Assembly: GCA_020351995.1 (NCBI GenBank)
Contig: CP070674.1
Span: 257,261-321,260 of the forward strand
DNA from: Candidatus Zixiibacteriota bacterium
Lineage (GTDB): Bacteria; Zixibacteria; MSB-5A5; GN15; FEB-12
DNA: 64,000 nt
Direction: 5' to 3'
Position 1 is the first letter of the stretch; every line of letters begins with the position of its first letter. Shown here in pieces: positions 39,153 to 51,231 of the stretch. The position numbers and the translations under genes were made by a program. A model generated the notes under the pieces. It did not search any database and had not been told where the DNA came from. It saw only the letters and a program-made list of their open reading frames with translations.

Positions 39153-39482
39153 GTGCTGATTTTGACAAGGAAGTTGGGTGAATCCATAAATATCGGTGAG
39201 GATATCAGGATATCGGTATTAGGGATTCATGGCCGACAGGTCAGGATTGGGATCGATGCCCCGCTTGATGTAGTGGTGCACCGAGAAGAGATTTATGTCA
39301 AGATTCAAGAGGAGAACCGTAAAGCTCAGAAATCGATACCGACTGACTTGAAGGGCATGGTACGGCTGATCAAAGGGAAAATTAAAGGCGAAAAGAAATC
39401 AGAGACTTCGCCTCCCGCTATAGACTACAAGGATCAGCGCAAGAAAGGTAACGACTCTGAGACTCGCCGGCCACGGCGATGA
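39153..39482 (+). CDS. csrA: Carbon storage regulator CsrA with long C-terminal tail
   Basis: 109 residues from GTG at 39153 (AAGGAGGG upstream). Residues 1-60 are the full CsrA fold: [34 protein letters not shown]. CsrA dimers bind GGA motifs in mRNA and block or stabilise translation. Most CsrA proteins are 60-75 residues; this one has a further 45 or so residues rich in Lys, Arg, Ser and Glu. It lies between flgK and flgL, with its antagonist fliW two genes on, the arrangement known from Bacillus for flagellin control. Confidence 0.93.
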
Positions 39483-39512: not shown

Positions 39513-41438
39513 ATGCGGGTCACTAACAAGATGATGGCCGACCGCGTGTTATTCAACGCGCAGTCCGCCCTGAGAAGATTCATTGAGATGCAAACCCAGA
39601 TGTCATCGGGGCGAAGGATTAATAAACCTTCGGATGACCCTCTGGGGATACAACGTGATCTCGACTATCGGTCGGAACTTTCCAGAAATAGTCAGTTTCT
39701 GAAAAACGTGGATAGGGCGCAGGATTGGGCCGGTAACTACGACAGTCTTCTCTCAGAAACAGGCATACTACTAAGTTCAACCCGCGAGCTGGCTATCTTC
39801 ATGGCTAATGAAGTAGCGGATGACGACGGTACATCGCGCAAGGCTGCGGCCGTTGAGATTCAGCAAATGTTCGATCAGATAGTCCAGCTGGCCAATTCCA
39901 AGATCGAGGACAAGTACATATTCAGCGGCTTTCGTACCGATAACCAGGCTTTCATCGCCTCGGCAAATGGTGTTCGATATGACGGAGACAGCGGGCAAAT
40001 CAAGTTCCAGATCGACCCCTCTACCGACATGATGGTCAACCTGATTGGCTCTGATGTGTTTCTCGAACAGCTTTCAATTCTGGGCGAAAACGCCGATCTG
40101 AATGTTGCCGTAACGGCCGGTACTTTGCTCAGCAATCTTCACAACGGTGACGGGGTTAACCTGACACCCGGCACGATAACCATTACTGATCAGAATCTTG
40201 GCATTACGGTAAACGTTAACCTGAGCACCGCCACTACGGTGCAGGATGTCCTGCTGATGCTCAACATCGCTTTCTCCGGCGGCGGCATCACCAACCTGGT
40301 GGCGAAAATAGGGCATGAACAGAATAATATCCTCCTGGATGCAACCGAGAACGGCCTGATATCAGATGTTACCTCACTTGAGGTAATAAATGGTGGCAAC
40401 GGTGTGGACCTCTCGGTGGGGAAAATACGGCTTACCGACAACAGTACGATTGACATCCAGATTGATTTCAGTGGTTGCGAGACTATCGGTGATATCATAA
40501 CCGCCTTCAATACTCAGGTCGCCGGGGCAGGAATCGCAAATGTCAATATGGGGATCAACGCGGCCGGAACGGGTTTCGAAATAGTCGACAGTAACGGGGT
40601 CTCTCTCGGCCTGTCTATCGCCGAAATCGATGTTTTCAACACGGTGGCCTCCAGTCTCGGTATCGACGGGCAGATAAACCCGATCCTTGTAGGTGACGAT
40701 CTCAATCCGACAGTCAGTTTTCTGGTGGAGGATGTCGGTGGGACGACCGCAGCCGAACTGGGCATAGCCGGTGAATTCTTTGCGGATTTCCCGGGTTCAG
40801 ATCTGGATCCACTCCTTCTGCCGACTTCGCTTATCGCCGACCTCAATAACGGGATTGGTTATGAACTTGGCGAAATCCGGCTTTCACAGGGGGAACGCAC
40901 GCATATCATGAATCTGGGGAGTCCGACTCTGATCACGGTACAGGATATGCTGGATGCTTTCAACACCTGCGGCCTTGATATCACGGCCTCAATCAACCCG
41001 GACGGACGGGGAATACAAATTGAAAATAATGACCCCACGCGTTCTTTCACAATAGAGGACATCGGAGACGGCAGGACATCCAAATTGATGGATATCTTCG
41101 GGTCAAGCGACGTGTTAGGTTCTTATCTGGTACTCATAAGCGCCCTTCAGAGAGATGACCAGGAAGGGGTAGGTCTGCTCCTGGGTAATTTCGAGGAGGC
41201 TATATCGCGAATGCTGGATCATCGTTCGAGCGTTGGAGCCCGGGCTATCAGGCTCGAAGCGACTCAGAGCCGGCTGCTTGACCGCGAATTGTCATTCACC
41301 AAACGCCTTTCAGAGATTGAGGATGCAGATATTACGAAGTTGATTACGCAACTGTCAACTTTTGAGAATAACTATCAGGCGGCGCTGCTGGCCAGTGCCA
41401 AGATAATTCAACCCTCACTATTAGATTTCATGAGATAG
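39513..41438 (+). CDS. flgL: Flagellar hook-associated protein 3 FlgL, enlarged by flagellin-IN repeats
   Basis: 641 residues, about twice the usual FlgL. N terminus MRVTNKMMADRVLFNAQSAL and SGRRINKPSDDP, and the C-terminal SRLLDRELSFTKRLSEIEDADITKLITQLSTFE (in parts) are clear FlgL/flagellin D0-D1 helices. Between them at about 200-275, 288-365 and 438-510 are three flagellin hook IN-type modules (pattern: NLHNGDGVNLTPGTITITD..VNLSTATTVQDVLLMLN). They would project from the junction surface. It lies between csrA and fliW. Confidence 0.9.
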   Translation: MRVTNKMMADRVLFNAQSALRRFIEMQTQMSSGRRINKPSDDPLGIQRDLDYRSELSRNSQFLKNVDRAQDWAGNYDSLLSETGILLSSTRELAIFMANEVADDDGTSRKAAAVEIQQMFDQIVQLANSKIEDKYIFSGFRTDNQAFIASANGVRYDGDSGQIKFQIDPSTDMMVNLIGSDVFLEQLSILGENADLNVAVTAGTLLSNLHNGDGVNLTPGTITITDQNLGITVNVNLSTATTVQDVLLMLNIAFSGGGITNLVAKIGHEQNNILLDATENGLISDVTSLEVINGGNGVDLSVGKIRLTDNSTIDIQIDFSGCETIGDIITAFNTQVAGAGIANVNMGINAAGTGFEIVDSNGVSLGLSIAEIDVFNTVASSLGIDGQINPILVGDDLNPTVSFLVEDVGGTTAAELGIAGEFFADFPGSDLDPLLLPTSLIADLNNGIGYELGEIRLSQGERTHIMNLGSPTLITVQDMLDAFNTCGLDITASINPDGRGIQIENNDPTRSFTIEDIGDGRTSKLMDIFGSSDVLGSYLVLISALQRDDQEGVGLLLGNFEEAISRMLDHRSSVGARAIRLEATQSRLLDRELSFTKRLSEIEDADITKLITQLSTFENNYQAALLASAKIIQPSLLDFMR

Positions 41439-41457: not shown

Positions 41458-41937
41458 ATGATTGTAAGAAGCCTGCGACTGGGACAGCTTGAGATACCGG
41501 ACAATAAGATTATCAAGACGGAAAAACCGATCCTCGGTTTCGAGCATCTGTCGCGCTATTGCCTTATCGACGTCGATGAACTGCGGCCATTCCTGTGGAT
41601 GCAGTCCGCTGATGATCCGGCGGTAGCATTTCTTATTGTTAATCCCCGGGTGTTCTTCCCTGACTACAAGATCGAGGTTAATTCGAAAGAGATAGCCGAG
41701 CTCAAGGTCGACCGGGTGGAATCAGTAGAGACTTACGTAATCGTGACTCTGCCGGAAGACCCGAGTGAGATGTCGGTCAATCTTCAGGGGCCGATACTGA
41801 TCAATACCGAAAACAACAAGGCCAAACAGCTTATTCTGGTTAACTCGGATTATCGTATCGCTCATCGAATTCTCGACACCTTACCGGAGGAATCGGAAGA
41901 GACGGCTGCAAAGGAATTGGAATCGGTTACGGTGTGA
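41458..41937 (+). CDS. fliW: Flagellar assembly factor FliW
   Basis: 159 residues, normal size. FliW binds CsrA away from its RNA site and also binds flagellin; when flagellin is exported, FliW is freed to silence CsrA. Marks: EKPILGFEHLSRYCLID, PFLWMQSADDPAVAFLIVNP and LNxQGPILINTENNKAKQLIL (in parts). csrA and fliC are close by, so the whole control loop is in one region. Confidence 0.94.
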   Translation: MIVRSLRLGQLEIPDNKIIKTEKPILGFEHLSRYCLIDVDELRPFLWMQSADDPAVAFLIVNPRVFFPDYKIEVNSKEIAELKVDRVESVETYVIVTLPEDPSEMSVNLQGPILINTENNKAKQLILVNSDYRIAHRILDTLPEESEETAAKELESVTV

Positions 41938-42000: not shown

Positions 42001-43638
42001 ATGGCACATCAGGATGTAGTTGAGCTTCGTGAAAATCTCGCCCGAGGTCAATTGACCGCAGAAGAAGTCACGAGTATCGCTAATGAATATCTCGATAAGA
42101 ACGAACTCGAAGAGGCCTATCCAATAATCTCGCTTCTTACGGAAGCCCCTGAAGCGTCGAATCATACCAGAATCACCGCCGGAATGCTGGCCCTCGCGCT
42201 ATCGAAACCTGATGACGCGGCCGCGTTTTTTGAGCAGGTACTTGAAAACGATACCGATCACTTTGACGCTAATTATAACTTGGTACTGCTCGACATGGAG
42301 CAGGGACGGCTTGAACGGGCCGCTGAGCGACTTGGCAAACTCGTAGCGGCCAACCCTGACAATGCTTCGCTGTTAAGCGATATGGCAGTGATCTGTCACG
42401 ACAGGGGAGACGTCAAAACGGCCATTGAGTACTGGCAAAAGGCTTTGACAATCGATCCCAACCTCGCTATTGCCCGCAACAACGCTATGGAAGTGTGCGT
42501 GGAGAAGAATCTGGTAACAGAAGGCAAACATCTATTAATGCTGAACGCCAAAACTCCCGGGGTTTCTTCCGGGTCAATACGAGAAATTCAGAGTTGGGCC
42601 GAGCGCCTCACGAATGTGTCCGGGCAACCATCGGCAACCGATGACGGGGTCCAGCATATCACGTCCGCGGAAAGCGGCATTCGCGGCAAGAAGATAGCCG
42701 TGTTCGCTGCATTCGATACATTTCTGAAAGATATCGTCGGTCACCTATCGAAGGGCAACGAAACCCGGACTTTTCGGAAGGGTACCGCAGACAGGATGCA
42801 ACTGCTTCTGGAATGGGCTGACATTGCCTGGTTCGAGTGGTGTGACAGTTATCTCGTGGAGGCTACCAAGCTTCCCAAGACCTGTCCGATAGTGTGCCGT
42901 CTGCACAGCTACGAAGCCTTTTCGGAATTGCCGTCTATGGTAGACTGGACCAAGGTTGACCTGTTGATATTAGTAAACGATTCCGTAAAGCAGGTGCTCG
43001 AAAACCGCATTGAAATTCCAACCCGGCAAATAGTGATCCACAACGCCGTCGACGGCTCACGGTTCACAATTCCGGACTCCAAGGTCTATGGAAAGAAGAT
43101 CGCCTCAGTGGGGTACATTAATTATCGTAAGAACCCTGGTTTACTTCTGTACTGCTTCAAGAAAATCCATCAGTACGACCCGGAATACAGTCTGCACATC
43201 GCCGGAGAACATCAAGGTCCCCGCCTCCAGTTGTATTTCGACCATTTCCTGAAAGAGAACCCGTTGCCGGTCTACTATGACGGCTGGGTCGATGATATGG
43301 CGGCATGGTACGCCGACAAGGATTACGTTATATCGACTTCATTGTTCGAGTCTTTCCACTATTCCATAGCCGAGGGGATGGCGTGTGGACTGATACCGCT
43401 AATTCATAATTGGTATGGTGCTGCCAATTTATACCCAAACGATTTTCTGTTCAATGACCCCGATGAATGCCTTGAAATTCTTAAGAGTATGGAAGGTCGT
43501 GACAGAGCCGGGTTGGGTCGGCAGAACCGACAGTTCATTCTGGATAGGTACAATCCTGACGATAAAATGGCGGCTATAAGCGCCGAACTTCAACGTCTGG
43601 TAGAGTCAACCGTAGCGGAAGGGCAAACGCCAGCATAG
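42001..43638 (+). CDS. TPR protein with GT-B (GT4/GT1-like) glycosyltransferase domain
   Basis: 545 residues. Residues 15-185 are tetratricopeptide repeats (e.g. DAAAFFEQVLENDTDHFDANYNL, in part); residues about 225-535 form a GT-B transferase with HIAGEHQGPRLQLYF, the sugar-nucleotide region SLFESFHYSIAEGMACGLIPL near residue 450, and RQNRQFILDRYN. The arrangement recalls O-GlcNAc transferases in using TPRs to hold a protein acceptor. It lies between fliW and fliC, so flagellin or the junction proteins are the likely acceptors. The sugar donor is unknown. GGAG precedes the ATG. Confidence 0.75.
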   Translation: MAHQDVVELRENLARGQLTAEEVTSIANEYLDKNELEEAYPIISLLTEAPEASNHTRITAGMLALALSKPDDAAAFFEQVLENDTDHFDANYNLVLLDMEQGRLERAAERLGKLVAANPDNASLLSDMAVICHDRGDVKTAIEYWQKALTIDPNLAIARNNAMEVCVEKNLVTEGKHLLMLNAKTPGVSSGSIREIQSWAERLTNVSGQPSATDDGVQHITSAESGIRGKKIAVFAAFDTFLKDIVGHLSKGNETRTFRKGTADRMQLLLEWADIAWFEWCDSYLVEATKLPKTCPIVCRLHSYEAFSELPSMVDWTKVDLLILVNDSVKQVLENRIEIPTRQIVIHNAVDGSRFTIPDSKVYGKKIASVGYINYRKNPGLLLYCFKKIHQYDPEYSLHIAGEHQGPRLQLYFDHFLKENPLPVYYDGWVDDMAAWYADKDYVISTSLFESFHYSIAEGMACGLIPLIHNWYGAANLYPNDFLFNDPDECLEILKSMEGRDRAGLGRQNRQFILDRYNPDDKMAAISAELQRLVESTVAEGQTPA

Positions 43639-43646
43639 AGTTCTAT

Positions 43647-46343
43647 ATGGCCAAGAAGAAACTTCGCAAGAAAAGCAGAGCTGAACGAGGAAGATACAGT
43701 TCGTCAACGAAAGCGGGGAAACCGGAGTTCTCGGTAGCCGGACTGCTGAAGCAGATCGAGTTAAATCCCCGCGAAGTTGCCTTGCGCCTGACGCTGGCCG
43801 AATACTATCTCCGGCACGGGAGCGAGGAAAAGATCCTCGACACTTTGTCACCTGTGAAAGATGATTATCCCTTCGATGACACCGTTAACAGCAGGTTGTA
43901 CAACCGTCTCCTGGCGTTTGGATACGCCAATCAAGACAAGCTGATCGAAGCGGACGGTATCTGCAATCGCGGTTTGGAGGAAGAACCGAACAGCCTGGAT
44001 TATCATTTTATCCAGTGCTTCATTGCTCTCAGGTTGCGCGAATACAAAGCCGCCATCGAGCATGGTCAGAAGTATCTTTCGCTGGCGAAAGAATCCTCAG
44101 GCGGGGATTTGCCAGCCCTTGATTTTTCAGCGACCGATTCACATTTGAGTATGCTTCACAACCTGGTGGGCGCAGCGCATTATGAGATGTCACAATGGAG
44201 CGAGGCCCAGGCGGCGTTTGAGGCGGCGCTGCAATTCGACCCGGGTAATTATTTGCCGTATATAAACTTAGCAAAGATAGCCCGTCACCAGAGAGACATT
44301 AAAAAGGCTCGCGCGATAATTGCCGAAGGACTCAGCAAATGTCGTGACATTCAGGAACTGCGACTTCTGGACCATTCTCTGGAACAGAGTGCTACCATAT
44401 CGGTCTGCATGATCGTCAAGAACGAGGAGAAACTTCTGCCGGGTTGTCTGGAATCCGTTCGAGACTGGGTTGATGAAATTGTTATCGTTGATACCGGCTC
44501 TACCGATCGCACCGTGGAGATAGCGGAATCATTCGGTGCCAGGATTTTTCACCAGCTGTGGGAAGGGAATTTTTCCAAACATCGCAACTACTCGCTTGAG
44601 CAGGCCACCTGCGACTGGGTCTTCATTATTGACGCGGACGAACGGTTCGTGCAGGAGGATATCGCGGAAATTCGGCGCCTGATTAATCAGGACGAGGTAG
44701 GAATAATATCGATCAATGTGTACAACGTCTATGGCACCAATGAGGAGCTTCAAACCTTTCTGCCGTCGGTAAGATTCTGGAGAAGGCACCTGGATCTACG
44801 TTATGAGGGTATCGTGCACAACCTGTTGGAGCTCGGCATGGAGCACCCCGTGACTCGCTCCCGGGCCAGAATTAAGCACCTCGGGTACGATCTGGACAAG
44901 CAGAAGATGTCGCAGAAATTTGAGCGAACGAAGACCCTTCTGGAGAAACAGCTCGAAGAAAATCCGGATAATTACTTTGCCCTTTTCAATTACGCGCAAC
45001 TGCTGAAGAGCGAAGGTGGCGTGTTTTCAGCGAAGAATGCGCCTAAGGTGCTCGAGTCCGCCAAACGAGCGATAGAATTGACCGATCCCGATGACCGGAG
45101 CCAGCGACATATTCACCTGATGTGTCTGGATCAGGTGGCCTCGGCCAGTTTCTATCTTGGGGACTGTGACACGGCCCTTGAGTACGCACAGCGGGCCCTT
45201 GAGCTAAAGCCAAACTATCTGGACTCGCTGATGGTGAAAGCGTACGTATACGCCCAACGGGAAGATTGGGAGCGTGCCCGCGAGGCCTACCAGGAATATC
45301 TTGACGTTCAGGAGCGCTACGATCCGTCGACCGAGAAGGATTGCCTGATTCTAAGTCACGTGAACAATCGCGCCAGCGCCCACTACGGCCTGGCCCTTAT
45401 AGCGGAAATTCAGGGCGACCTTGAAACAGCCCGACAGCAATTGGAGAAGACCCTTGAGGAACGGCCCACATATCTTGAAGCTAATCTGCGGTTAGGAAAC
45501 ATCTTCCTTAAGGAAGGCGACTGTGAGAAGGCTCGTGAGCTTTTCTGCCGACAGTTGAGCCTGCCTTCGGGCAGAATGGATGCCGCTCTTGGTATGGCTA
45601 TCGCCTTCGAGAGAGCCGGGGAATTGGATAAGTCGGAAGAATTTTATAGCAAGGCGGTGGAACTAAGTGACGGCAAACCGGAGGCTCATCTTAAGTATGG
45701 TGGTTTCTTGATTAATCAGGGTCGTAGCGATGAAGCCGCGGAGCAATTTGACAAGGCAGTAAGTCTCGGCGGGGATTCGCGGTCAGTTCGACAAAAGCTG
45801 GCGGACCTGTATTTTGACGCGAGACAGTATTCTAAAGCCTGCGAAACCTATCTCGCCATTCTAGACCACCACGGCGCGGATGCGGAGACTCTGAACAATT
45901 TAGGTAATTCTTACTTCAGCCTGGGCCAATTTGAGCGGGCGGAAGAATATTACGCCAAGGCCCTTGATGTCGAGAAACCGCTCAATCTGACCTATCGCAA
46001 TCTCGGTCTGGCCCAGGCCAGGCTCGAGAAATACGCCGAAGCTGTCTCGGCCCTTTCACAATATGCCGCCAACCTCGACCAGGAGCCTGAGATTGTCAAG
46101 GTTCTGGCAGAATTACACGCTAAGACCGGGGACTACCCGGCAGCTCTGAGCCATTATGAGCAGTTTTTGAGTCGCTGCCCCTCGGATGTAAACGCTCTTT
46201 TTGGCCTATCCGAATGCTATCTCCATATGGGACATAGGGATTCGGCCACGCTCGGGTACAAGCGGGTGCTTGAGCTTGATCCGGATTTTGCCCCCGCCCA
46301 GAGTCGTCTCCAGAGCCTGCTTGAGCCTGTCGGCAAGGCTTGA
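43647..46343 (+). CDS. Large TPR protein with embedded GT2 glycosyltransferase domain
   Basis: 898 residues. A Lys/Arg-rich N terminus (1-25) and TPRs (about 30-235) precede a GT2 domain (about 249-410): TISVCMIVKNEEKLLPGCLE, VDTGSTDRT, and the metal-binding DADER at 329-333. More than ten further TPRs fill residues 430-890 (e.g. AEEYYAKALDVEKP). Eight bases after the previous transferase, so the two are an operon and probably work on the same acceptor. TPR-flanked GT2 proteins occur near flagellin in several phyla and some glycosylate it; here this is inferred from position. Confidence 0.78.
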   Translation: MAKKKLRKKSRAERGRYSSSTKAGKPEFSVAGLLKQIELNPREVALRLTLAEYYLRHGSEEKILDTLSPVKDDYPFDDTVNSRLYNRLLAFGYANQDKLIEADGICNRGLEEEPNSLDYHFIQCFIALRLREYKAAIEHGQKYLSLAKESSGGDLPALDFSATDSHLSMLHNLVGAAHYEMSQWSEAQAAFEAALQFDPGNYLPYINLAKIARHQRDIKKARAIIAEGLSKCRDIQELRLLDHSLEQSATISVCMIVKNEEKLLPGCLESVRDWVDEIVIVDTGSTDRTVEIAESFGARIFHQLWEGNFSKHRNYSLEQATCDWVFIIDADERFVQEDIAEIRRLINQDEVGIISINVYNVYGTNEELQTFLPSVRFWRRHLDLRYEGIVHNLLELGMEHPVTRSRARIKHLGYDLDKQKMSQKFERTKTLLEKQLEENPDNYFALFNYAQLLKSEGGVFSAKNAPKVLESAKRAIELTDPDDRSQRHIHLMCLDQVASASFYLGDCDTALEYAQRALELKPNYLDSLMVKAYVYAQREDWERAREAYQEYLDVQERYDPSTEKDCLILSHVNNRASAHYGLALIAEIQGDLETARQQLEKTLEERPTYLEANLRLGNIFLKEGDCEKARELFCRQLSLPSGRMDAALGMAIAFERAGELDKSEEFYSKAVELSDGKPEAHLKYGGFLINQGRSDEAAEQFDKAVSLGGDSRSVRQKLADLYFDARQYSKACETYLAILDHHGADAETLNNLGNSYFSLGQFERAEEYYAKALDVEKPLNLTYRNLGLAQARLEKYAEAVSALSQYAANLDQEPEIVKVLAELHAKTGDYPAALSHYEQFLSRCPSDVNALFGLSECYLHMGHRDSATLGYKRVLELDPDFAPAQSRLQSLLEPVGKA

Positions 46344-46384: not shown

Positions 46385-46411
46385 TAAAGTTGTCACACTT
46401 TATGCCGATTT
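46385..46411 (+). promoter_or_regulatory. Sigma-28 promoter of fliC
   Basis: TAAAGTTG (46385-46392), 11 bases, GCCGATTT (46404-46411). This matches TAAAGTTT-N11-GCCGATAA with three mismatches in all. It lies about 215 bases before the fliC ATG, giving a long leader. Confidence 0.8.
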
Positions 46412-46627: not shown

Positions 46628-48709
46628 ATGTCACTTCGCATTAACCACAACCTCGCAGCGCTCAACGCGAATCGTAATTTAAACGAGACGAATAGTGCGC
46701 TGACGAAGTCGATGCAGAGGTTGTCATCCGGTTACCGGATCAACCAGGGTGCCGATGACCCTGCCGGTCTGGTTATTTCCGAGCAGTTCCGGGCTCAGAT
46801 TGCCGGTCTGAACCGCGCGATTGCCAACTCGGAAGGATCGATCTCCATGATCCAGACCGCTGAAGGGGCGATCACCGAAATCAACAACCTGTTGGTCTCG
46901 ATGAGAGAACTGGCCATCCATGCCGCCAACGAAGGCTTCAACGATGCCGATCAGCTGGCTGCCGACCAGGCAGAAATCGACAATGCGATTACCACTATTG
47001 ATCGTATTGCGAAGAATACCCAGTTCGGCAGAAAGCCGCTTCTGGACGGCTCCAAGGACAATATCGCCACCATTACGTCGGCTAACAGTTCCGGCGTGAC
47101 CATCAAGAGATCATACCTCAGCGACGGTCAGCATTCGATCACGGCCACCAAGACGGCCGATCCGAGTGCCAAGCTGAACACGACCTCGCTGGGTCTCTCG
47201 CTGGCCAATACCGATGGCGATCCCTACAACCTGTCGGAAGGCATTCACTCGATCAATGTCCTTCAGGCTTCAAATTCAGCGATGAAGACGTCCGACGCAG
47301 TCGCGATGTCGGATGCCTGGGGTAACGGTCTTGAGATTGCCGCAGCCGCTACGGTGGCCGTGGTATCCTCATCCGCTTTGGCTGCCGCTACGGCAACCAA
47401 CGTGGGAACCTACTCCATCATTCTGAACTATCAGGAAAACGGCGAGTCCCCGACTGGTGACCAGACCCTCACGGTTGCTGTAGAACTCGGTGACAACACC
47501 TCCGACGTAGCCGCAAAAGTTCAGGCTCAGATAAACCTGAATTCGGCGCTGGCCGGAAAGGTTGTCTGCTCTGGAACCGACGGTAGCTTTCTGAACTTCA
47601 AGACGGCTAATCAGGGTGCCCAGTACTCGATTCAGTCGAAGGCTTCGTCCACCACGGCGACTGATGCTCAGTTCACTGTTGGCGTTGCCAACGACCGCGG
47701 CGCCTCAGCCAACATTATTGAAATGACCGTAAATACGGCCACCAATAGCGCGGCTGCGCGGATAGTTACCATGAACGCTTCCGTGTACAGCAACCTGGCT
47801 GACCTGGTGACCCGTCTCGACGAGGCTCTGGACACCGCTTTCGGCAAGGTTCAGGGTGACGCTACGATATCCGACGTTGATGCCATGGTATGGAACGACA
47901 ACATGATTCGGATGTACACCAACGATGAAGGTTCAGCGTACTCGGTGCAGGTCACCGCTGGTGCCGCCGGAACCGGTAACGTTCTCAACGTTCTGAATCT
48001 GACCGTTGATACTCTGGCCAACACCGGAACCGACGCTTTGATCGCGTTCGACGGCTATACCAATACTGTCGATATGGTCAAGTACGGTTCGACTTCCGAT
48101 ATCAGCTTGATCAACGCTTCTGACGGTGAAGCGGGACAGGGCAGAGTGGAGCTGACGGTGGCTACCGCTCCTAACGGTATCAATCTCGGCAACCTGTTGC
48201 TCGACGTATCGGCGGCCCGGTTTGACGTCCGTCTGGACGGCGGCCCGGCTAACTCAGTGATTGCCGGTATCGAAAGCACGATCTACAATGCTGATCGTTC
48301 TGAGTCCCTCAGGTTGCTCTATGACCTGACCTCTCAGGGCGGCACTGAGACGATCTATAACGTCGACCAGTCACTGGTCTTCCAGATCGGCGCCAACGTC
48401 GGTCAGACGGCCAGCATCGGCCTGCGTAACATGTCAGCCTCATCGCTCGGTACGGGCCTGGCTGAGAACATGTTCCGCTCGCTGGCTGATATCGATGTTA
48501 CGACCGTTCAGGGCGCCCAGGATGCTCAGTCGGTTATCGACGCGGCTATTAATGAGGTATCCACCACTCGTGGTACTCTGGGAAGCTTCCAGAAGAATAC
48601 TCTGGAGTCCAACCTGAGAAACCTCAGGATCGCCGCTCAGAACCTGACGGCTTCCGAGTCGCAGATTCGTGACACTGATATGGCATGGGAGATGTCAGAA
48701 TTCAACTAG
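46628..48709 (+). CDS. fliC: Flagellin, ended by an in-frame TAG before its conserved C-terminal helix
   Basis: 693 residues to the first stop. The N terminus SLRINHNLAALNANRNL, SSGYRINQGADDPAGL and AEGAITEINNLLVSMRELA are classical D0/D1 flagellin. A large variable middle (about 145-600) forms the exposed domains. The C-terminal D1 helix (LESNLRNLRIAAQNLTASES, then QIRDTDMAWEMSEFN) is interrupted by TAG at 48707-48709, exactly where flagellins continue with K/R-NQILLQAG. The same frame goes on to TAA at 48790 (see next entry), for a total of 720 codons. A truncated protein would lack the D0 C-terminal helix needed to polymerise and to bind FliS. The ribosome site AAGGAGGAG is excellent. A strong sigma-28 promoter suggests the gene is meant to be highly expressed. 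Confidence 0.9.
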   Translation: MSLRINHNLAALNANRNLNETNSALTKSMQRLSSGYRINQGADDPAGLVISEQFRAQIAGLNRAIANSEGSISMIQTAEGAITEINNLLVSMRELAIHAANEGFNDADQLAADQAEIDNAITTIDRIAKNTQFGRKPLLDGSKDNIATITSANSSGVTIKRSYLSDGQHSITATKTADPSAKLNTTSLGLSLANTDGDPYNLSEGIHSINVLQASNSAMKTSDAVAMSDAWGNGLEIAAAATVAVVSSSALAAATATNVGTYSIILNYQENGESPTGDQTLTVAVELGDNTSDVAAKVQAQINLNSALAGKVVCSGTDGSFLNFKTANQGAQYSIQSKASSTTATDAQFTVGVANDRGASANIIEMTVNTATNSAAARIVTMNASVYSNLADLVTRLDEALDTAFGKVQGDATISDVDAMVWNDNMIRMYTNDEGSAYSVQVTAGAAGTGNVLNVLNLTVDTLANTGTDALIAFDGYTNTVDMVKYGSTSDISLINASDGEAGQGRVELTVATAPNGINLGNLLLDVSAARFDVRLDGGPANSVIAGIESTIYNADRSESLRLLYDLTSQGGTETIYNVDQSLVFQIGANVGQTASIGLRNMSASSLGTGLAENMFRSLADIDVTTVQGAQDAQSVIDAAINEVSTTRGTLGSFQKNTLESNLRNLRIAAQNLTASESQIRDTDMAWEMSEFN

Positions 48710-48891: not shown

Positions 48892-51231
48892 ATGCCAGCC
48901 GCTAACTCCATCACCGGGCTTAATTCCGGTATCGACTACACTCAAATCATAGATGCGACCATAGAGTTCGAACGCACGAACGCCGTTCTGCTTGAATTGG
49001 AGCAGGCCGAAAAGCAGTCGATTATAACGGCCTATCAAGCTTTGCAGGCTAAGTTCCTGGCTCTGAGCGCGGAACTAAAGAAGCTCGCCAGGGTGAGCAC
49101 GTTTGAGAAGGGTTCGGTAAACGTCTCAGACGAATCGGTTCTGAGCGCCACCTCCAGCGGAAGGCTTGGCGACGGATCATATAATGTACAAGTTTTATCG
49201 CTGGCCCGAAATCACCAGCTTGCCAGCCAGGGCTTTACGGATTCGGCGGTGTCTTCTTTCGGTACCGGTACTATCAGTATCCGGGTTGGCGATGGCTCGG
49301 TGCGGACAGTGACAATAGACTCGTCCAACAACTCACTGGTGGGAATCAAGAAGGCCATCAATGACGCCGAGGTGGGTGTAACAGCATCGATAATAAACGA
49401 TGGTTCCGAATCCAATCCCTATCGTCTGATAATTACCGGTGACAGCACTGGCGCGGCCAACCGGGTGACAATCGAAGCGGATCTTACAGGTGGTAGCAAT
49501 CTCGATTTCACAAATTCTCACTTCGACGTACCCGAGACCCTGATGATGAGTTCCGGTTCGACTTCTCAGGTCTCGCTCGGTTCGATGGCGGCATATACAG
49601 GCGCGGAAAACAAAATTTACACGTTTACGGTTGCCGGCACCGGGGCTCAGACAATCGGCACCGATAACATTACGATTGACTGGACCGACGGCACTAACTC
49701 AGGGTCGATTGTCGTTACGCAGGCGGATACGGAAGTCGAGCTTGTTGGCGACGGTGCTGATGGCCTCACCCTGTCATTTTCGGCGGGTGTACTGACAGCT
49801 GGTGATACTTTTCAGATAGGCACTTTTTCTCCGCTCTTACAGCAAGCCTCGGATGCCAAAATAACACTCGGCTCCACTGGTGGCACAGGTTCGCCGATAA
49901 CGGTCACCTCGGATACCAACAGCTTCGAAGACTTGATCGGCGGGATTTCCCTTAACGTTTTCAAGGAAACGGCCCCGGGAGAGAGCGTTACCATAAGTAC
50001 CGGTATCGATATCACCAGTATCAAGGCACAGATTCAGACCTTTATCGATCGTTATAACGACGTCACGGAATACATCGACAATCAGAACAAGTATGATCAG
50101 GATGCCAGCAATGCCGGCGTTTTGTTCGGAGACGCCACCGTCTGGAGTATGCAAAACTCGCTTCGTTACGCGGCGGGCTCGACGATACCGGGGATCAGCG
50201 GTCAGTTCAACCAGCTTTATTCAATCGGTATTCGCACAAATGCCAGTGGCAAGCTGGTTATAGCCGACCCATCTCGACTCGACAATGCGCTGGAGAATAA
50301 TCTTGATGATGTTATCAGCCTTTTTGCCAGCGACGGTAGTTCTACCAGCTCTTTTATTGAATTCATATCTTCCACCGAGAAGACAGTCACCGGCACGGGA
50401 TTTCAGGTCGACATAACGCAGGCGGCGAGTCATGGGGCCTTTCAGGGCGCGGGCATAACCGACCCGGCAACATCGCCCATAAACCTCACGACCACCAATA
50501 ACCGACTCCGGTTAACGGTCGACGGTCTGACCTCCGATGAGATCATTCTAAGCACCGGTACTTATAGCACCACCGAGACACTGATTCGGGAAATTCAGGC
50601 GCAAATAGACAATGATTCCAAGCTGGGCAATCGTGACGTGACAGTCGAGTGGGTGTCAACGGGAGCGGAAACCGGTTATATCAACATAGTAAGTTCGACC
50701 TACGGCTCAAGCTCAAAGGTGGAGTTGGTGACCGAACAAACCAACAACGCGTACGCCATACTGGGGCTCTCCGGCGGCTCGACGATTGAAGGTCTTGACG
50801 TAGCCGGAACCATCAACGGCGAGGAAGCCGAAGGCACCGGCCAGACGTTGACGGGTAAAGAGGGTAACGCCACTACCGACGGCCTGAAAATCCTGGTCAC
50901 GCTTGACGAGTCACAGGTTATCTCCGGTGTCGATGCCACCATTACTATCACAAAGGGCATCGCGGCCCGGATGGCCGAATATGTGGACAGCGTGACCATG
51001 ACCGGTGACGGTACCTTTGACCGCCGGATCAGGTCCTACCAGAACCAGATTGACGCCTTGACGGAACGAATTGCCGATATCGACGAACTACTCGAGCTGC
51101 GGCGCCAAGCCCTGTATGAGCAGTTTTACCAGATGGAGCTTATCCTGGGCGAACTGAACGCCCAGAGTCAGTATCTCACGACACAGTTAAATTCTTTGAA
51201 TATGAATTGGAAGTTCAACCAGAAGGACTAA
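48892..51231 (+). CDS. fliD: Flagellar filament capping protein FliD
   Basis: 779 residues, larger than enteric FliD (about 470). N terminus ITGLNSGIDYTQIIDATIEFE and the coiled D0 stretch up to about residue 65, then the D1 part (VSDESVLSATSSGRLGDGSY). The C-terminal conserved domain includes QIQTFIDRYNDVTEYID and GIAARMAEYVDSVTMTGDG, RRIRSYQNQIDALTERIADID, and LGELNAQSQYLTTQLNSLN. The middle (about 200-330 and 480-690) is an expanded surface region, in keeping with the large flagellin and FlgL. FliD caps the filament and folds new flagellin. fliS follows. Confidence 0.94.
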   Translation: MPAANSITGLNSGIDYTQIIDATIEFERTNAVLLELEQAEKQSIITAYQALQAKFLALSAELKKLARVSTFEKGSVNVSDESVLSATSSGRLGDGSYNVQVLSLARNHQLASQGFTDSAVSSFGTGTISIRVGDGSVRTVTIDSSNNSLVGIKKAINDAEVGVTASIINDGSESNPYRLIITGDSTGAANRVTIEADLTGGSNLDFTNSHFDVPETLMMSSGSTSQVSLGSMAAYTGAENKIYTFTVAGTGAQTIGTDNITIDWTDGTNSGSIVVTQADTEVELVGDGADGLTLSFSAGVLTAGDTFQIGTFSPLLQQASDAKITLGSTGGTGSPITVTSDTNSFEDLIGGISLNVFKETAPGESVTISTGIDITSIKAQIQTFIDRYNDVTEYIDNQNKYDQDASNAGVLFGDATVWSMQNSLRYAAGSTIPGISGQFNQLYSIGIRTNASGKLVIADPSRLDNALENNLDDVISLFASDGSSTSSFIEFISSTEKTVTGTGFQVDITQAASHGAFQGAGITDPATSPINLTTTNNRLRLTVDGLTSDEIILSTGTYSTTETLIREIQAQIDNDSKLGNRDVTVEWVSTGAETGYINIVSSTYGSSSKVELVTEQTNNAYAILGLSGGSTIEGLDVAGTINGEEAEGTGQTLTGKEGNATTDGLKILVTLDESQVISGVDATITITKGIAARMAEYVDSVTMTGDGTFDRRIRSYQNQIDALTERIADIDELLELRRQALYEQFYQMELILGELNAQSQYLTTQLNSLNMNWKFNQKD

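Follow-up and report, generated by a model that had tools for sequence, protein, structure and literature searches.

What are two glycosyltransferases (GTs) carrying tetratricopeptide repeats (TPRs) doing in the middle of a flagellar gene cluster? This question is raised by a 64,000-nucleotide stretch (contig CP070674.1, positions 257,261 to 321,260; hereafter the window) of the single-contig, 3.6 Mb genome of a Candidatus Zixiibacteriota bacterium, in which flgK-csrA-flgL-fliW-gtA-gtB-fliC-fliD-fliS follow one another on the plus strand. The two enzyme genes, gtA and gtB, are spaced by 8 bp and lie between fliW and the flagellin gene fliC. We propose, with a probability of about 0.78, that they form a cytoplasmic O-glycosylation module for flagellin, in which gtB would start the glycan and the optional gtA would extend or diversify it. 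The arrangement is not due to chance, because orthologues of both genes occupy the corresponding position in numerous genomes. The features concerned, with lengths in amino acids (aa), are the following.

42001..43638, plus strand: gtA, TPR and GT-B (GT4) glycosyltransferase, 545 aa (open reading frame (ORF), Pfam, AlphaFold model)
42058..42552, plus strand: gtA TPR-type helical repeats, residues 20-184 (Pfam, model)
42685..43611, plus strand: gtA GT-B domain, residues 229-537 (VIA Z 30.2, root mean square deviation (rmsd) 2.3, 304 aligned)
43348..43374, plus strand: gtA motif E450...E458, which we take to be EX7E (both Glu invariant in alignments)
43647..46343, plus strand: gtB, TPR-GT2-TPR glycosyltransferase, 898 aa (ORF, Pfam, model)
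43734..44384, plus strand: gtB N-terminal helical/TPR wing, residues 30-246 (Pfam, model)
44394..44966, plus strand: gtB GT2 domain, residues 250-440, kin of GmaR and SunS (phmmer 7.4e-30, 9.7e-19)
44631..44642, plus strand: gtB DADE (DxD) motif, residues 329-332 (D329, D331 and E332 in 71/71 copies)
44967..46322, plus strand: gtB C-terminal TPR superhelix, residues 441-892 (Pfam, model, fold comparison)
46385..46411, plus strand: sigma-28-like promoter before fliC, TAAA-N15-GCCGATTT (sequence and comparative count; consensus assumed by us)
46628..48709, plus strand: fliC, large flagellin, 693 aa, proposed substrate (Flagellin_N 5.1e-36, Flagellin_C 1.6e-10)

An earlier note on this DNA had described two adjacent proteins joining TPRs to different transferase folds, the second of 898 residues with one TPR block on either side of its GT2 domain, and had placed them between fliW and fliC. 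The window ORFs and Pfam matches bear out all of this, as do the models for the domain make-up. In gtB, the GT2 domain (PF00535 at 252-369, 2.8e-23) has TPRs on both sides, and the AlphaFold model consists of helical repeats (30-246), a GT-A domain (250-440) and helical repeats again (441-892), with a mean local confidence (pLDDT) of 86.9. Pfam matches in gtA comprise TPRs at about 60-160 and a group-1/GT4 GT-B domain (PF13692, 8.9e-12); its model contains helical repeats (6-207) followed by GT-B (229-537), at pLDDT 88.5. Since the predicted template modelling score (pTM) is only 0.57 for gtA and 0.58 for gtB, the placement of the domains in the models is unsure.

The PDB sequences nearest to the GT2 domain of gtB (phmmer) are GmaR (7.4e-30), followed by SunS (9.7e-19) and by a ThuS-like entry; fold comparison also matches SunS (Z 26.2, rmsd 5.7 over 289 residues). 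The catalytic motifs hardly vary: D282, G284, S285, D287, W305, R313, N314, D329, D331, E332, V390, H391, N392, H411, G413 and Y414 are invariant in 71/71 gtB copies, and G388, kept in 69/71, is the sole tested motif residue that varies. The majority residue has a mean share of 0.65 in the GT2 domain versus 0.37 in the N-terminal repeats of the same copies. A SunS equivalog identity was rejected (NCBIfam TIGR04195, 87.1 bits against a cut-off of 350). A full Asn ladder, as in O-GlcNAc transferase (OGT), did not emerge either: with the TPR register placed by eye, an Asn at position 6 is limited to N448 (71/71), N785 (65/71, with 6 gaps) and partly N751 (28/71). No Maf domain occurs among the Pfam matches listed for gtA and gtB (25 of 34 for gtB).

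The GT-B domain of gtA finds its best solved structural matches in the GT4 enzymes BshA/HepE (Z 30.2, rmsd 2.3, 304 residues). Kinship with OGT/SPY, which rank at the top in Foldseek, was discarded, as the rmsd over the whole chain is 17-23 and domain alignment favours GT4; none of the 15 Pfam families matching gtA at E <= 0.001 is GT41 (PF13844). The candidate relatives A5 (TPR proteins with a C-terminal domain, families f15/f16) match gtA through their TPRs only.

How general is this locus? At the order level, 61 genomes were searched for gtA, FliW and flagellin and their loci fetched; the phylum-level set contains 132 genomes, 107 flagellin-positive and 25 flagellin-negative. gtB was scored in 94/107 of the former and 1/25 of the latter (Fisher p 6e-16, a value that ignores kinship). 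The lone flagellin-negative genome with gtB, G098, is 74% complete and carries gtB behind fliW. FliW without detectable flagellin is encoded in 17 genomes, among which only G098 has gtB, and none of the five with FlhA and no flagellin (G059, G073, G100, G101 and G102, the first two incomplete) has it. A fetched locus contains gtB in 72 genomes; 64 of these have fliW upstream of gtB (directly in 29, with gtA alone intervening in 21), and 61 have fliC downstream, as the gene immediately after gtB in 53. Since the loci were selected by their gtA, fliW or gtB matches, they are not a random sample. Within the order, intact loci other than that of G006 have gtB between fliW and fliC, either directly or preceded by gtA. 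gtB is thus the conserved core of the locus, normally just upstream of fliC. Two genomes, G033 and G005, carry a doubled gtB, with two intact GT2-TPR units in a single chain of 1464-1467 aa encoded by one ORF.

The position of gtA is different: it is an accessory gene that has been repeatedly gained or lost. Of the 26 loci of relatives found with gtA, 22 come from genomes named Candidatus Zixiibacteriota. On a quick tree of 71 gtB rows, which has some long branches and omits G005 and G033, 26 rows have gtA with a GT-B domain and 27 lack gtA; in 4 it is TPR-only, in 9 other content takes its place and in 5 its status is unknown. The presence of gtA takes 10 changes to explain, or no fewer than 7 when counted on well-supported branches. 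Reduced forms exist, G009 and G021 keeping only the GT part and G035 and G036 only the TPRs, as do fusions of 808-1243 aa, those of loci L138 and L061 being shown to carry a further GT2 domain. The two-step flagellin glycosylation pair suggested by the earlier note holds in part: in the loci read, no such pair occurs away from flagella, but gtB is without gtA in 27/71 tree loci, and a fixed two-step system is therefore not established. As a general rule, a fixed two-enzyme system is refuted by the many loci without gtA.

We can now outline how the module may work. gtB would dock newly made flagellin through its TPR arrays, acting as a docking arm, and would move the first sugar from a nucleotide donor onto Ser/Thr in the cytoplasm, before export. 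gtA, where kept, would be a TPR-guided GT4 second enzyme acting on the glycan begun by gtB, extending or diversifying it. Both enzymes would be made together with fliW, probably from one operon and ahead of sigma-28-driven fliC, so that they await their substrate. This timing is suggested by the promoters. A sigma-28-like sequence, TAAA-N15-GCCGATTT, lies 216 bp before fliC in the window, and the strict pattern, built on what we take to be the sigma-28 consensus, occurs in the 400 bp preceding fliC in 24/61 loci versus 15/3050 mononucleotide shuffles. Upstream of other genes it is found in 1/72 cases for gtB, 0/22 for gtA and 0/63 for fliW. Such a promoter thus tends to precede fliC only, and gtA and gtB are therefore probably made before flagellin.

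The content of the gap bears on the sugar donor. In the window, the gap between fliW and fliC holds the two GTs only; since it contains no sugar-synthesis gene, a common housekeeping donor can be inferred, a UDP-GlcNAc-like one being the simplest guess. Other families of the phylum have the layout of a flagellin glycosylation island, in which genes for GTs and sugar nucleotides lie among the flagellar genes next to fliC. The gap contains an epimerase and a DegT aminotransferase in L144; L138 and L134 each have an epimerase there, and L141 has a methyltransferase. On the L150 stretch, which does not include fliW, gtB is preceded by genes for Polysacc_synt_2, DegT, an epimerase, a hexapeptide transferase, a B12-radical SAM protein and a TPR-GT.

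The GT domain of Listeria GmaR, a flagellin O-GlcNAc transferase, glycosylates flagellin (PMC9638930). It shares with gtB the GT2 homology followed by a C-terminal TPR array; however, gtB has an additional N-terminal repeat wing and TPRs up to the C-terminus (to residue 890 of 898 by Pfam, in a scan not aimed at the antirepressor fold). GmaR also acts as an antirepressor, with MogR as partner. The TPR domain of Caulobacter FlmG binds flagellin (PMC7591256), and gtA, likened to it by layout alone, has the same succession of N-terminal TPRs and C-terminal GT-B (545 versus 596 aa); unlike FlmG, its GT-B scores as GT4 and the gap is without pseudaminic-acid genes. A FlmG-like and an extended GmaR-like layout are thus placed side by side. 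With the peptide S-glycosyltransferases SunS/ThuS, whose substrates are bacteriocin peptides, gtB shares GT2 fold and sequence.

In Pseudomonas syringae, two flagellin glycosyltransferase genes, Fgt1/Fgt2, lie upstream of fliC and a several-sugar glycan is made (PMC3927599); the likeness to gtA/gtB concerns gene placement, by description only, and the Fgt glycan is rhamnose-viosamine. Clostridium flagellar glycosylation islands occupy a hypervariable gap in the flagellar locus, and their GT2+TPR proteins were proposed as flagellin glycosyltransferases (PMC13317340), so that this idea is not new. These islands are flanked by different genes, Maf and nonulosonic-acid genes being frequent, and the Zixibacteria gtB is conserved instead of variable; it is the islands with sugar-nucleotide genes of other Zixibacteria families that resemble the Pseudomonas and Clostridium ones. 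A literature search on flagellar glycosylation in Zixibacteria returned only a match off the subject, judged by title and abstract. Within the literature searched, what is new here is the double-winged architecture of gtB, its retention across the phylum and its labile TPR-GT4 partner. TPR-guided cytoplasmic flagellin glycosylation would thereby be extended to an uncultured phylum, where gtB is found in most flagellin-bearing genomes and the second enzyme is labile. The loci form a natural series, from those lacking gtA through those with gtA alone or fused to further GTs to those with a doubled gtB or a deleted GT2, and are suited to studying substrate choice by TPRs and diversification of flagellar glycans.

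Several observations weigh against the proposed module. gtB was not scored in 13/107 flagellin-positive genomes: in G008, G094 and G097 the locus is cut by contig ends, in G044 it ends at a contig edge, in G006 the GT2 domain is lost, and eight others remain. In G006 an in-frame deletion of the entire GT2 domain has left an intact 320-aa ORF between fliW and fliC, residues 2-255 of which match 1-252 of G034 gtB (43%) and 229-320 its last 92 (55%). This genome keeps a 726-aa flagellin, and the modification is consequently not indispensable there; its flagellin has lost conserved Ser/Thr at two columns, a loss not exceeding that of several others. The Ser+Thr content of the flagellin variable region is the same regardless of gtA (15 versus 11 flagellins, averaging 0.231 and 0.230, p 0.82; the 26 with a gtA label among 34 retained by a start-motif filter). 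In G018, G023, G030, G032 and G060, gtA has weaker GT-B paralogues (31-39% identity) on stretches that carry no flagellar genes. Such paralogues, together with the frequency of GT2 and GT4 folds in these pathways, could indicate that gtA and gtB serve the synthesis of a lipid-linked glycan or of a polysaccharide of the surface, their flagellar location being incidental. Phylum-wide conservation beside fliC, the absence of gtB from 24/25 flagellin-lacking genomes and the long TPR arrays make this very improbable.

The earlier note had pointed to flagellin, FlgL or FliD as substrates. Flagellin is well supported as the probable target by the GmaR-like GT2 domain, the linkage to fliC, the co-occurrence with flagellin and the sugar-nucleotide genes elsewhere. 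The hook-filament junction protein FlgL and the cap protein FliD are both enlarged and adjacent, and nothing beyond position singles either out; gtB is immediately beside fliC in 53/61 loci with fliC, and flagellin is the target of both known TPR-GTs compared here, GmaR and FlmG, so that FlgL and/or FliD are improbable as the real substrates. An association of gtA with large flagellins did not materialize either, since large flagellin, FlgL and FliD occur with or without gtA, even in the GT2-deleted G006. That gtA and gtB act independently on flagellin, adding different sugars at different sites without a shared chain, is possible, if doubtful. Each enzyme has its own TPR array, gtA is reduced to GT-only or TPR-only forms in the four genomes named above, and two intact GT2-TPR units share a chain in G033 and G005; yet flagellar-type gtA was never seen without gtB in intact loci, and an extender role therefore fits it better. 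It is also unlikely, although hinted at by the TPR-only gtA of G035 and G036 and by the first ~250 and last 92 gtB residues kept without GT2 in G006, that the TPR arms serve as flagellin sensors or chaperones as well, for example linking glycosylation with the switch through which FliW and CsrA control the translation of flagellin; here the likeness would be to GmaR, which is tied to transcription.

The other flagellar genes of the window are the following.

39153..39482, plus strand: csrA, 109 aa, extended C-terminus (NCBIfam CsrA 1.8e-28)
39513..41438, plus strand: flgL, 641 aa (Pfam; named by position and orthology)
41458..41937, plus strand: fliW (PF02623 5e-39)
48892..51231, plus strand: fliD, 779 aa (PF07195 1e-40, PF02465 1.7e-16)

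The enlargement of flagellin, FlgL and FliD reported earlier is confirmed by their lengths (693, 641 and 779 aa), the E. coli counterparts being shorter; FlgK, with 462 aa, is not enlarged. The CsrA family model spans the first 60 of 109 aa, the remainder being a long C-terminal extension. The same genome encodes, distant from the cluster, a second small flagellin of ~256-268 aa (G000:C1:1649640-1650038; L002, L080), as do many relatives. Its FlhA is split (G000:C1:3013696 and 2741863), gtB is divided over a fliW locus and a fliC locus in G114 (C1:2034923 and 3400864), and gtB occurs without fliC at G002:C1:421730; rearrangement or misassembly may account for each case in these single-contig genomes.

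In flagellin-negative Zixibacteria, csrA and fliW persist in all seven loci read (L158-L164). L161 has a 474-aa FlgL-like ORF without Flagellin_N and, as in the window, ThrRS/PheRS downstream; FlhA and FliW occur without flagellin in G101:C181 (L160), G100 and G102. A TPR-GT4 protein is encoded downstream of fliS in G053 (L066:8489-10387), its C-terminus appearing methyltransferase-like when read by eye from the sequence. Outside the phylum, gtA relatives adjoin TPR-GT41 proteins in L135 and L136. The latter, from a 'Proteobacteria' bin, carries a GT2-TPR-GT4 fusion and the TPR-GT41 protein near flagellin, the only such case seen in an analysis centred on the phylum.

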